From NCBI GenBank assembly GCA_028284665.1, contig JANQRG010000037.1, positions 101,810 through 165,809 of the forward strand: a DNA stretch of 64,000 bases, in the 5' to 3' direction. The number at the start of each line of letters is the position of its first letter. Within the stretch, counting starts at the first letter, position 1. A program made the position numbers and the translations under genes. Under the pieces are notes generated by a model that saw nothing but the letters and a program-made list of their open reading frames with translations, searched no databases and was not told the DNA's origin. Below, piece by piece: positions 36,131 to 40,125 of this stretch. The stretch comes from Croceivirga sp. Lineage in GTDB: Bacteria; Bacteroidota; Bacteroidia; Flavobacteriales; Flavobacteriaceae.

Positions 36131-36283
36131 ATTAAGTTACTGTAAAGGAATTGCAAAATAGGAAATGCAGCCTATATCTTAAAATGGATTTAGCAAAATA
36201 TTAGGGGAATTTTTAATAATCCACCATTATTTTGATGCATAGAAATAGCCAAACGACGTAGAATAACCAAGCTTGAACAACCT

Positions 36284-36309
36284 GCTCCGCAGTAGTTGTA
36301 CTGCTGCGG
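36284..36309. repeat. REP hairpin, left copy
   Basis: A 26-bp sequence that is the exact reverse complement of 36991-37016. Within it CCGCAGTAGT and ACTGCTGCGG form a stem with one mismatch. It lies 8 bp downstream of the transposase stop. The rest of the 36131-36317 gap shows nothing else I can name. Confidence 0.75.
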
Positions 36310-36317
36310 AAACCTCA

Positions 36318-36893
36318 TTATGTTATCGTTTTCATCATTTGTGGCAATACCATAACCTCTGGTAAAATTGATTCCTCTTCCAAATAATTCGATGCTGAAG
36401 AATACAACCAGTGCTCGGGCTTTACCACAAAATTTTCAACCACGGGATTGTTGTGAATATAACGTATCTTATCCCACAAGAACTTTTCAGTGTACAGTTC
36501 AATAGCATGGTTGCCTGTTTTCCAAAATTTGAACGCCGTACTTTTTGAACTGTTATCTGCGGCATTTTTGAATATGGAAACCAAGTTTTCCCTTCTGGAC
36601 TCTGGCTCTTTTATTATTTGGTTCAATACCGTTCTTGCGGAATGTCTCTTGAAATCCCTTATGGTATCGCTCAATTGAAAAGGTTCCTCGCAATTGGCAA
36701 TTAAATGGATATGATTGGTCATAAGACAATAGGCATACACATTTAGTCCCTTATTTTCAATACAATACCTCAATGACGCTATTATGGCCTGTTTATGATT
36801 CTTTCTTGTAAAAACGTCTGCCCAATCTACCACAGTCAAAGTCATATAGTAAGAACCATTTGTCTTTATCGTATGTTTTACGCCTTGTTGCAT
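36318..36893 (-). CDS. REP-associated tyrosine transposase (RAYT, Y1_Tnp/HUH)
   Basis: A 191-residue single-domain nuclease of the IS200-like superfamily. The HUH motif is NHIHLIA (His61, His63), preceded by YAYCLMTN, and the C-terminus has WDKIRYIHNNPVVENFV and EHWLYSSASNYLEE, standard for RAYTs. These domesticated enzymes act on REP palindromes. Two identical REP hairpins in opposite orientation flank this gene, which supports the call. No other transposase ORF or IS ends were seen. Confidence 0.9.
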   Translation of the reverse strand: MQQGVKHTIKTNGSYYMTLTVVDWADVFTRKNHKQAIIASLRYCIENKGLNVYAYCLMTNHIHLIANCEEPFQLSDTIRDFKRHSARTVLNQIIKEPESRRENLVSIFKNAADNSSKSTAFKFWKTGNHAIELYTEKFLWDKIRYIHNNPVVENFVVKPEHWLYSSASNYLEEESILPEVMVLPQMMKTIT

Positions 36894-36990
36894 ACCTTAA
36901 TTTAATAAAATTATGCCGCAGGGAGAGAACTAAACGGCCATAGCAAGCACTGTGGCCCTCAACATTCTTTATTTACTGCTACTATTTGTG

Positions 36991-37016
36991 CCGCAGCAGT
37001 ACAACTACTGCGGAGC
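36991..37016. repeat. REP hairpin, right copy
   Basis: Begins CCGCAGCAGTACAACTAC and continues to CGGAGC. It is a perfect inverted match to the copy at 36284-36309, about 98 bp upstream of the transposase start. Just beyond it a second hairpin CTTTAGG / CCTAAAG follows (37029-37052 region). Confidence 0.78.
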
Positions 37017-37128
37017 TGGCCAAAAAAGCTTTAGGGTATAAGCCTAAAGTACTCAGCTGTGCTTAGTGTGCTGCCTTATCCTATAAGGTGTTTTGCCCAT
37101 GGTACATTATAAAAGTTTTCCATTTAAA

Positions 37129-37196
37129 ACGGAAGAAATACACTGGCTATTCACGCTAAGTTTTAAAGCGTATAGTTTGATTTAGATTTCTTCCGT
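37129..37196. repeat. 11-bp inverted repeat pair, unassigned
   Basis: ACGGAAGAAAT (37129-37139) and ATTTCTTCCGT (37186-37196) are perfect inverted copies 46 bp apart, with a smaller hairpin CGCT/AGCG between them. It could be a small mobile or structural element left in this decayed region. Confidence 0.5.
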
Positions 37197-37279
37197 ACTT
37201 ACTGTTTAGATAATTAAGGGGTCTATTCCGTGATACTATATAGAGAGAATTTTATGGCATTGTCGCCGTGGTATGACAC

Positions 37280-37417
37280 CTAGTTATCCCAAATTTCCAT
37301 AAGCACTTCTTGGACTACATCTTCACAGATGATCGGATCATTGATAAAGCGATTTGCAAATGCATATAACATGGGACTTAAAGAATCGAATGTCCTTTTA
37401 AACTCTTTTAACGTCAT
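37280..37417 (-). pseudogene. ECF sigma-70 factor fragment (region 2 only)
   Basis: A 45-residue frame too short for the ORF track. It reads MTLKEFKRTFDSLSPMLY, AFANRFINDP and CEDVVQEVLMEIWDN, a close fit to sigma-70 region 2.1-2.2 of FecI-like factors (core binding and helix start), then hits TAG. The rest of region 2 and all of region 4 are missing. Its 5' edge runs straight into a dispersed repeat (about 37411-37460), so an insertion or deletion probably cut the gene. No anti-sigma or SusC/D partner is nearby. Confidence 0.6.
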
Positions 37418-37460
37418 CCCAGATCTTTCGTCTTGCTGAATCTGCGGGATCTGATTGGGT
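37411..37460. repeat. Dispersed flavobacterial intergenic repeat
   Basis: GTCATCCCAGATCTTTCGTC runs into a partly inverted arm ATCTGCGGGATCT, a hairpin of the common 'gtcatccc...gggat' type. From here to 37630 the sequence is purine-rich with no gene I can support. Confidence 0.5.
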
Positions 37461-37635
37461 TATTTGACTAAATCTAACTAAAAAACCAATGCTGTAGGCG
37501 GTTATGGGACTAAAAAGCAGAAAAGTCCGCGAAAAGTTGAGGGAGGGAACAGGAGAAGGGAGGTAAGGACCATATTTACGTTAATGTTCTCCTTTTTAGA
37601 TAAGTTTTAATCCCTATCAGATAAGTTGTCCCAAT

Positions 37636-37643
37636 TATATTTG
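37636..37643 (+). promoter_or_regulatory. Candidate -7 box of the peptide cassette
   Basis: TATATTTG matches TAnnTTTG exactly, 22 bp before the first ATG of the MauE-like gene. No clean -33 element was found. Confidence 0.45.
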
Positions 37644-37665
37644 AACTATTAGTCGGTAATACTGT

Positions 37666-38124
37666 ATGCGTATTATGAAAAAAAATAGTAAGAAAATATT
37701 TATAGAGATAATATACGGTTTATATATTTTATTATTTACCTATGCCGCTGTTAGTAAATTACTCGATTATCAGCAGTTTAACGTACAACTTGGTAAGTCC
37801 CCCGTTTTAGCAGCGTACGCAGATATAATCGTATGGGCGGTCCCTTTTGTGGAAATCGTCATTTCCCTGATGCTGCTCTTTACACGTCTTAGGCTAATCG
37901 GGCTTTTTGCTTCCTTTTTCCTTATGGTCATGTTTACGGCCTATATCATGGTCATTTTGAACTTTAGTGATTATGTGCCCTGTTCCTGTGGTGGTATTTT
38001 GGAAGAATTGGGCTGGACAGAGCATCTCATTTTTAACAGTGTATTTATTGCCCTAGCCTTTATAGGGATACTACTACTAAATGAGGAAAAAAATCCAACC
38101 GAACAAAAATATGTAACTGCATAA
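37666..38124 (+). CDS. MauE/DoxX-family redox-associated membrane protein
   Basis: A 152-residue protein with four predicted membrane helices. IYGLYILLFTYAAVSKLLDYQQFNVQLGKSP and WAVPFVEIVISLMLLF are typical of the MauE/DoxX group. A CxC pair lies in YVPCSCGGILEELGW (Cys106, Cys108), the place where these proteins carry redox cysteines. In methylamine dehydrogenase systems MauE is needed for making disulfide-rich small subunits. ATGs at 37666 and 37675 are both possible. It is followed at 17 bp by a probable propeller protein and then by a four-cysteine exported peptide. Confidence 0.8.
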   Translation: MRIMKKNSKKIFIEIIYGLYILLFTYAAVSKLLDYQQFNVQLGKSPVLAAYADIIVWAVPFVEIVISLMLLFTRLRLIGLFASFFLMVMFTAYIMVILNFSDYVPCSCGGILEELGWTEHLIFNSVFIALAFIGILLLNEEKNPTEQKYVTA

Positions 38125-38141
38125 ACTATAATCAGCAACAG

Positions 38142-39251
38142 ATGACAAATAAAAAGATCTATATCATCCTTTTGTTAGGCTCCATGTTCTGTATTGGATT
38201 GGTTACGGTATTATTTGCCCTTTCGGAAAAGACCATACACCATGAGAACCCATTTATACGGCGTGTCCCTCCCCATACGATTGCCAAAACGCATGATCTG
38301 GACCTTGGTTATAACTCCTATTATATCGCCGGGGTGGACAAGGACAGGATATTTTTGGGAAACCATTCGTCTCCCCTGCATGTATTGGTGCTGGACTCCA
38401 CCTTAAAGGACACCTCTCATATCCAATTACATGTGGACCGCAAGGACCTTCCGGTCTATTCCATGCAAGTACGGGTAGCACCACCCTATTTCTATATCAT
38501 GGACGGCAGGTCTCCCTTCGTCTTTAGGGGAAAGACCACGGATTGGAAAGCTTCGCTCCTTATGTACCAAGGGGCCTATTTTTCATCTGCTGAACCTGTG
38601 GATTCCAGCACCATGATCATTCGGACGAGGAGCAGTATCTCCAAGGAAGATGTACTGGGCAGGATCTCCATGGGGGATTCCGTGCAGGTAGACCTGTCCC
38701 ACAAGCTGCTACAAAAGCAGATCGATGGGATATTCTGCGTGGATGGAAAACTGTTGTTGGCAAAAGAACTACAAAAACTGGTGTATGTCTATACCTATAG
38801 GAACCAATTTGTTGTGGCCAATACCCATCTGGAACAGGAATTTATCGGTAAGACCATCGATACCATAAGCAGGGCACGGATCGAGCTGGCTTCGATAGAT
38901 TCAAAAAATGCGACCACTTTGGCCTCCCGGCCCCTGGTAGTGAACAAACAATGCAGTACCTACGGCAATTATCTCTTTGTAAGCTCAAACCTGTTGGGAA
39001 GATATGATCCTTCAGATATGTTGAACCATGCCGCTATCATCGATGTATACGACCTCAAAAAGAATACTTATGAATTTAGTTTTTATCTCTATGACCACCT
39101 TCAAAAGCGGATGACCGGCTTTCAGGTGCAGGGCGATCGATTGATAGCGTTAATGGAAAAGTACATAGTGTCCTATACCCTAAGACCGGATTACTTTGAG
39201 AAGGGGGAAAACCCCGTGGTGGCAACCTATCCCAAGGTAAACTTAAAATAG
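38142..39251 (+). CDS. Membrane-anchored probable beta-propeller protein of the peptide cassette
   Basis: A 369-residue protein with one N-terminal membrane anchor (about residues 5-26, IYIILLLGSMFCIGLVTVLFAL) and a long extracytoplasmic part rich in short strands (DRIFLGNHSSPLHVLVLD, PPYFYIMDGRSPFVF, GNYLFVSSNLLGRYD). This pattern resembles the 6-bladed propeller proteins that Bacteroidota often encode next to small exported peptides, though I could not assign a named family. Two cysteines remain outside the anchor. It lies 17 bp after the MauE-like gene and 127 bp before the peptide gene. Confidence 0.65.
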   Translation: MTNKKIYIILLLGSMFCIGLVTVLFALSEKTIHHENPFIRRVPPHTIAKTHDLDLGYNSYYIAGVDKDRIFLGNHSSPLHVLVLDSTLKDTSHIQLHVDRKDLPVYSMQVRVAPPYFYIMDGRSPFVFRGKTTDWKASLLMYQGAYFSSAEPVDSSTMIIRTRSSISKEDVLGRISMGDSVQVDLSHKLLQKQIDGIFCVDGKLLLAKELQKLVYVYTYRNQFVVANTHLEQEFIGKTIDTISRARIELASIDSKNATTLASRPLVVNKQCSTYGNYLFVSSNLLGRYDPSDMLNHAAIIDVYDLKKNTYEFSFYLYDHLQKRMTGFQVQGDRLIALMEKYIVSYTLRPDYFEKGENPVVATYPKVNLK

Positions 39252-39328
39252 ACAGGGGTAAACACCCCGGGTAGAAAAAGAAAATTATAATAAAATACTG
39301 GATCAGTGCCAGGGGTAAGACCGAAAAC

Positions 39329-39356
39329 CTGTAAAAAAGAGTAGGTCAATTAATTA
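39329..39356 (+). repeat. Leader repeat, copy 1 (upstream of the peptide gene)
   Basis: CTGTAAAAAAGAGTAGGT followed by CAATTAATTA lies 22 bp before the peptide start codon. A near-identical copy (2 mismatches in 28) occurs at 39862-39889 with no gene after it. Confidence 0.65.
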
Positions 39357-39378
39357 ACAACATAATAAATAGATTATC

Positions 39379-39633
39379 ATGAAAAAACTAATTCCCGTTT
39401 TTGCAATGGCCCTGGCCGTATTAGCAGCTTTTGCCTTTACTACCAATGGTGATTCCGAAGAGGTCTCTCAATTAGGTGTTTATGACTCTAATTCTAATGG
39501 CATTTGCAATATACCATATGACTGTGGACCAGTGGGACCGGATTTTTGTTTCGTCAAAGGTGTGACGCCAATTACACCGGTGTTTGAGAAAACAGATTGC
39601 GCCGTTCAGCTTAGAACGGTGCTGTATGATTAA
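39379..39633 (+). CDS. Small exported four-cysteine peptide (DUF6520-like)
   Basis: An 84-residue product. MKKLIPVFAMALAVLAAFAF is a signal peptide; the start MKKLIPVFAM.LAV resembles the DUF6520 family of Flavobacteriaceae. The mature part of about 62 residues carries four cysteines (43, 49, 57, 74; GICNIPYDCG, DFCFVKG, KTDCAVQ), enough for two disulfides. It has its own leader after the propeller gene and a strong terminator behind it. The neighbouring MauE-like protein suggests that the disulfides matter. Whether it is a signal, toxin, redox carrier or structural peptide is unknown. Confidence 0.75.
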   Translation: MKKLIPVFAMALAVLAAFAFTTNGDSEEVSQLGVYDSNSNGICNIPYDCGPVGPDFCFVKGVTPITPVFEKTDCAVQLRTVLYD

Positions 39634-39664
39634 AGTTCAGAAGTAATAATAGTTAGTAGAAGGT

Positions 39665-39683
39665 GCCCCCTGTAAAAGGGGGC
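39665..39683 (+). terminator. Terminator of the peptide cassette
   Basis: GCCCCCT / AGGGGGC, 7-bp perfect stem, 5-nt loop GTAAA, then ATTTTC. Confidence 0.75.
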
Positions 39684-39727
39684 ATTTTCTGTTGGCACCT
39701 ATCCTTATACTATTAAAATAATTGAAG

Positions 39728-39852
39728 GATCCTCCTCTTCAGAGAAGAGGGGCGGTTTCACCGAAGGTGAGATTAGGAAGTTTTGATATCACTTTCAAAA
39801 CCCTCCGTCCTACTTCGTAGGCCACCTCCCTTTGACTAAAGGGAGGAGTCAG
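39728..39852. repeat. MITE-like dispersed element
   Basis: Begins GATCCTCCTCTTCAGAGAAG and ends CCTCCCTTTGACTAAAGGGA followed by GGAGTC. It holds two strong hairpins (CTCTTC/GAAGAG and CCTCCCTTT/AAAGGGAGG) and imperfect terminal inverted repeats. I recall similar blocks between genes of many Bacteroidota. It encodes nothing. Confidence 0.6.
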
Positions 39853-39861
39853 ATCAAAAAG

Positions 39862-39889
39862 CTGTAAAAAAGAGTAGGTTAATTAATAA
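39862..39889 (+). repeat. Leader repeat, copy 2 (orphan)
   Basis: CTGTAAAAAAGAGTAGGT followed by TAATTAATAA repeats the leader of the peptide gene, but is followed directly by a 151-bp inverted-repeat element and no ORF. It looks like the remains of a second peptide gene. Confidence 0.6.
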
Positions 39890-40041
39890 TTGAATGTCCG
39901 TTTTTTGTCATAACATCGTTTTTTCGTCATGCTGAACTTGTTTCAGCATCTCATAACAGCTGTAAATCAATATTTTATGATGAGACCCTGAAATTAATTT
40001 AGGGTGACGCTTAATTTTATGAATGATTACGGACATTCAAA
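39890..40041. repeat. 151-bp miniature element with 12-bp terminal inverted repeats
   Basis: TTGAATGTCCGT at 39890 and ACGGACATTCAA ending at 40040 are perfect inverted copies. Inside are the hairpins GCTGAACTTGTTTCAGC and CCCTGAAATTAATTTAGGG, typical of a common flavobacterial dispersed repeat. No ORF is present, so it would be a non-autonomous element. Confidence 0.6.
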
Positions 40042-40125
40042 TGATACAATAACACACTCCCACAACCCCTGTATTTACTTTGATTGCTAATAAAAAACAA
40101 TAGTAATACTATCATTAATGAAAAT

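Follow-up and report, generated by a model that had tools for sequence, protein, structure and literature searches.

A probable single-copy RAYT unit of TnpAREP subclass 2.6 between identical inverted hairpins in a Croceivirga genome

A 64,000-nucleotide stretch of the Croceivirga sp. genome (hereafter, the window) carries one RAYT gene framed by two identical hairpins in inverted orientation. The arrangement is very probably a single-copy RAYT unit (i.e., a REPtron) of TnpAREP subclass 2.6, also called RAYT group 5, whose protein would process its own hairpins and occasionally mobilise hairpin-bounded segments. The group was reportedly also described by Bertels et al. in 2017. The features discussed are listed in Table 1; throughout, G### denotes genomes (G000 being the genome of the window itself), C## contigs, and L### loci.

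Table 1. Features of the RAYT unit and its surroundings in the window
Feature	Position	Strand	Basis
3.79-kb segment containing the RAYT unit, absent from congeners	36253-40043	.	Comparison with congeners
Outward 5' tag CCTGCT, foot of left hairpin	36281-36286	+	Similarity to other copies begins here
Left hairpin, 26 bp, GCTCCGCAGTAGTTGTACTGCTGCGG	36284-36309	+	Sequence, pattern scan, folding
RAYT gene, TnpAREP subclass 2.6, 191 aa	36318-36893	-	ORF, family models, motifs, fold
Leader, 97 bp, start codon to right hairpin	36894-36990	-	Sequence
Leader stem-loop GGCCA..TGGCC	36936-36957	-	Folding
Right hairpin, 26 bp, exact reverse complement of GCTCCGCAGTAGTTGTACTGCTGCGG	36991-37016	-	Sequence, pattern scan, folding
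Outward 5' tag CCAGCT, foot of right hairpin	37014-37019	-	Read on minus strand
Sigma-70 region 2 fragment in 3.79-kb insertion, 45 codons then stop (pseudogene piece)	37283-37417	-	Pfam E 1.6e-6
MauE-family gene in 3.79-kb insertion	37666-38124		
ORF, no family given, in 3.79-kb insertion	38142-39251		
DUF6520 gene in 3.79-kb insertion	39379-39633		

The hairpin pair and the RAYT gene

The first-pass annotation described two 26-bp sequences flanking a transposase as exact reverse complements that each fold into an imperfect hairpin, and the sequence, a pattern scan, shuffled controls, and folding all agree with that description. The hairpin is an imperfect palindrome, with a stem of 10-11 bp that includes one T.G wobble and a loop of 3 nt. 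At up to 3 mismatches, exactly two matches to it occur in the window and none in 100 dinucleotide shuffles. Both copies fold as single-stranded DNA at -8.7 to -10.1 kcal/mol; the z-scores of the left hairpin are -4.4 and -3.2, and those of the right hairpin are weaker (about -2.1 to -2.3) because its own flanks compete. No GT[AG]G is present at the 5' foot of the window hairpins, which reads CCTGCTC or CCAGCTC; the one place where GTAG can be read is within the stem, and L041 and L042 do not retain it.

The sole long ORF between the hairpins lies on the minus strand, and its product passes the NCBIfam REP-associated tyrosine transposase model REP_Tyr_transpos (86.3 bits against a cut-off of 80), which is matched by 40 of 40 homologs as well; it also matches Pfam Y1_Tnp. 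The HuH motif is found at H61/H63 (N60-H-I-H63, i.e., NHIH), and 84 amino acids separate it from the Y motif Y145-IHNNP, in which Y145 is the probable catalytic residue. Residues H61, H63, K142, Y145, N149, P150, S165, and S166 are invariant among 40 homologs, the two serines forming the C-terminal SS motif within a conserved YSSA (Y164-S165-S166-A). Such proteins are known from TnpAREP subclass 2.6 (RAYT group 5), which is found mostly in Bacteroidetes and is marked by NH[LIV]H and YIH[QN]NP about 82 amino acids apart and by an SS motif (PMC6006769). Because the NHIH, YIHNNP, spacing, and YSSA of the window protein are these published marks, we assign it to subclass 2.6. W124 is invariant, but the residue that follows is K in the window protein and in Maribacter, as against Q at L041 and in Pedobacter; the WQ of the subclass is a consensus and not an absolute criterion (PMC6006769).

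The AlphaFold model of the protein has a pLDDT of 91.6, and its best structural match (E 4e-7) is 4er8, the E. coli TnpAREP with a bound REP hairpin, which is also the top PDB match in a profile search. The model predicts an extra helix at residues 101-113, where subclass 2.6 has an insertion of ~21 amino acids between alphaC and beta4. The earlier identification of a RAYT gene within an inverted hairpin pair, in a REP/RAYT-like (REPtron-like) layout, is borne out by the family models, the motifs, the fold, and a comparison across 58 homologous loci. The window RAYT belongs to a known, little-studied Bacteroidetes branch; the earlier remark that such units are less well described in Flavobacteriia was fair, Quentin et al. 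(2018) having placed such proteins in the Bacteroidetes subclass 2.6 (PMC6006769).

The stem-loop in the leader is weak in the window (z -0.9), but strong in relic copies elsewhere in the genome (z -2.6 to -5.5) and likewise in the congener G008; the window version is a weakened form of the one kept there. In IS200, a leader stem-loop stops read-through into the transposase gene, and by analogy the one described here may be an attenuator against read-through into the RAYT gene.

Copies in the genome and in the family

For the genome itself, copies were counted from searches by pattern and by sequence, with a 400-kb sample in addition. Three exact copies of the hairpin were found, two in the window and one at G000:C18:30574-30599, and a search with the half-site TACTGCGGAGC brings in four variant ends more, all on contig 18, giving about seven recognisable ends in the genome. 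The first-pass annotation had held that only two copies in the genome would count against its reading, and that is not the situation here. There is nevertheless no genome-wide population of copies in paired orientation, as all of the approximately seven ends are confined to two loci, the window unit and a relic cluster on contig 18. A further match to the half-site on contig 16 sits inside a gene and was rejected as a chance match. A de novo hairpin scan over 464 kb of the genome yielded no tagged hairpin population besides the known loci, and the RAYT itself is present in one complete copy. That the hairpins are REPs therefore holds only in part: they are inverted around a RAYT gene, but strictly speaking they are not REPs, since the GT[AG]G foot is absent and the copy number is low. 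Across the family, the hairpin was found within 3 mismatches in 9 of 400 genomes, with a maximum of nine copies per genome (a reversed-pattern control over the family genomes gave no matches), and RAYT homologs were detected in 53 of 251 genomes at E<=1e-30.

The cluster on contig 18 (L010, 27-33.5 kb) consists of relics of RAYT units. It includes right ends that retain 16-22 codons of the RAYT gene, one left end fused to a right end, and long-loop hairpins carrying an inserted CCTGCCTGCCGTCAGGCAGG palindrome, interleaved with ORFs that weakly match a pre-toxin domain (below the cut-off); doublets of a different hairpin type (GCTCTGCGAAGT..) are also present. In the long-loop variants (L010 1680-1745, 2895-2945, and 4915-4985), the palindromes (CCTGCCTGCCGTCAGGCAGG, TATATACCGTTGGTATATA core) lie between the stem halves. 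A hairpin family other than that of the window (GCTCTGCGAAGTG.. / CCCGCTGTGCGAAGTT..) forms outward-tagged doublets at L010 1400-1540, 2945-3055, and 3690-3800; its type is that found beside the RAYTs of L172-L180, and no such RAYT was found in the Croceivirga genome. A second RAYT, on contig 22 (G000:C22:34972-35471; L011 1444-1999), is frameshifted, 34% identical to the window RAYT, and has its own hairpin type, GCTAGCGCTCGT..ACGAGTGC (GCTAGCGCTCGTTTGCAACGAGTGC).

At 6 of 19 distinct places, hairpins of the window type had RHS core motifs no more than 1.5 kb away, compared with 7 of 400 control stretches from the same genome (p about 5e-6, with a motif list picked after the first cases were seen). 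The loci concerned are L040, L152, L154, L203, L204, L212, L217, L219, and L225, and other RAYT types do not share this proximity. The window hairpin subtype may accumulate preferentially in RHS-repeat loci.

Deletion derivatives and mobility

The congener G008 contains a 253-bp element (G008:C82) with both hairpins, in which the ends of the unit are joined at window positions 36363 and 36856. A contig-18 relic in the Croceivirga genome shares this join, with another hairpin doublet lying over its right part; the two derivatives have unrelated flanks. The same deletion junction between unrelated flanks in two species shows that a hairpin-bounded unit has been mobile, and more generally that stretches of DNA between inverted hairpins have changed place. 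However, the identical derivatives may have passed between toxin-cassette regions by homologous recombination or by gene transfer instead of being moved by the RAYT. Two inverted hairpins also occur 1 kb apart in G007, where they flank an ORF weakly matching DUF3592. In Maribacter sp. 4G9, which has a RAYT of 82% identity, there are seven hairpins, among them two doublet segments that are 97.5% identical, together with a relic of the RAYT 3' end. Hairpins of this RAYT branch sometimes spread without the gene.

A shared outward tag

Visual inspection of one set of loci first drew attention to a (C)CYGCT tag. The inverted repeats flanking homologs at 35-82% identity differ in their stems and have in common (C)CYGCT as their outward start, 0-2 nt ahead of the stem; a second set of loci that had not been used to notice the tag again has it. 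When all trinucleotides 5' of outward hairpin feet were ranked over the 58 RAYT loci, GCT came first at 5.0 times expectation, and at the feet it was found 73 times outward versus 21 times inward; a different hairpin finder also ranks GCT first.

Mapped onto the RAYT tree, hairpin core type requires 11 changes, against a possible minimum of 9 and a mean of 31.7 after shuffling, with 0 of 200 shuffles as low; the class of tag spacer (one or two bases after GCT) requires a single change. Core types were labelled by hand, and the relatedness of the rows inflates the test; despite this relatedness, the direction is clear, and hairpin type appears to follow the RAYT tree almost perfectly. The direction matches the coevolution reported from gammaproteobacteria (PMC2817692). 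No (C)CYGCT foot tag was found in the main text of Quentin et al. (2018) (PMC6006769). It is this shared tag, together with the gene-deleted derivatives, that is new beyond the known subclass, and both are testable. At L170 (G178:C1:822911-823381), a RAYT that is 76% identical is interrupted at about codon 34 by a segment carrying the hairpin of a different RAYT type.

Genomic setting

In G001 (91% identical), an acyl-CoA ligase gene adjoins a pfl-like gene such that window position 36252 meets 40044, and five more congeners have the same adjacency; none of the 10 congeners has the RAYT unit at this position. A search of these 10 genomes for an empty site matching just the RAYT unit was negative, the only gap being the larger one of 3.79 kb. 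As the whole segment is lacking in congeners, the RAYT unit is not a clean single-unit insertion. DNA similar to the MauE gene of the segment is also found at C28:11439 of the same genome and in G008:C15.

Comparison with known systems and other explanations

Like the window unit, subclass 2.6 RAYTs are flanked by hairpins without GT[AG]G, termed "atypical secondary structures" (Quentin et al. 2018, PMC6006769), and have copies elsewhere in the genome; the window member differs in its W-K, and with its relatives it shares the (C)CYGCT tag. E. coli TnpAREP and its REPs (group 2) resemble the window system in fold, HuH and Y residues, a 5' tag with an imperfect hairpin, and inverted pairs, although the proteins are only 13% identical over the fold alignment, and the abundant E. 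coli REPs have a GTAG tag and a two-base bulge where the window has GCT, a wobble, and no abundant population. The canonical GTAG REPtron also places rayt between two inverted hairpins, but it has >100 hairpin copies per genome. In having two inverted, outward-tagged hairpins around a short spacer, the segments in G008 and Maribacter sp. 4G9 (and, decayed, on contig 18) are REPIN/BIME-like; unlike REPINs or BIMEs, the G008 spacer consists of both ends of the rayt unit itself, and there are only a handful of copies. A TIRYT (subclass 2.1) was rejected, as no GGGGWSAS is found at the ends, and the protein stops shortly after the SS motif, with no HTH family found.

The unit might instead be an IS200/IS605-like insertion sequence that moves in its entirety, with the hairpins as its left and right ends. 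The Y1 HuH transposase domain, hairpin ends, and leader stem-loop are common to both, the boundaries at the tags are element-like, and the deletion derivative common to unrelated sites and the relic ends on contig 18 would also fit. However, the protein scores only 26.8 bits with the IS200 transposase model, far under the cut-off of 55, and IS200/IS605 end hairpins have the same orientation and are recognised on one strand, whereas those of the window are exactly inverted. With only a single complete copy and no terminal target-site pattern found, we consider this explanation unlikely, and IS200 membership as such was rejected on score and end orientation. It is less likely still that the RAYT has been domesticated for a host function, its hairpins being regulatory or binding sites and its mobility negligible. 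The single copy, the leader stem-loop, and the description of RAYTs as vertically kept, domesticated genes (PMC8049555) favor such a role, but none of the 10 congeners has the gene here and only a minority of family genomes carry it, so it is not vertically kept here, and the relics and deletion derivatives reveal past mobility. That the hairpins are ordinary bidirectional terminators of the RAYT gene is hardly credible: one lies directly past the stop codon and the stem is GC-rich, but neither is followed by a T-run or detected by a terminator scan, the outward tag is conserved, and the upstream hairpin would have no such role for this gene; Rfam readings were likewise rejected after scans.

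The preferred explanation remains a RAYT unit acting on its own hairpins. The HuH/Y1 protein would bind its hairpin on single-stranded DNA, probably guided by the outward (C)CYGCT immediately 5' to the foot and by the wobble-marked stem; it would cut the strand beside the hairpin through Tyr145 and rejoin strands, and occasionally short segments between two inverted hairpins would be mobilised, including REPIN/MITE-like copies from which the middle of the RAYT gene has been deleted. Present-day activity of the unit is something that we infer. Counting against this explanation are the very low copy number, the location of all extra copies within the genome in one relic cluster, the lack of a unit-precise empty site, and the W124-K in place of WQ.

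Significance

We suggest, tentatively and as a proposal that falls a little short of being probable, that (C)CYGCT serves subclass 2.6 RAYTs throughout Bacteroidetes as the counterpart of GTAG, and that internal deletion of rayt units directly gives rise to their REPIN-like non-autonomous elements. If this is true, the birth of REPINs from RAYT units could be watched in low-copy genomes. The biochemistry of RAYTs has been limited to groups 2 and 3 and their GTAG systems (PMC8266576), and a different conserved foot tag in a Bacteroidetes group yields a prediction, directly open to test, of the sequence that these enzymes recognise. The GCT tag also allows such hairpins to be found by machine in place of a search by eye, and a gene-deleted unit in two species offers a concrete example of a way in which REPINs could begin.
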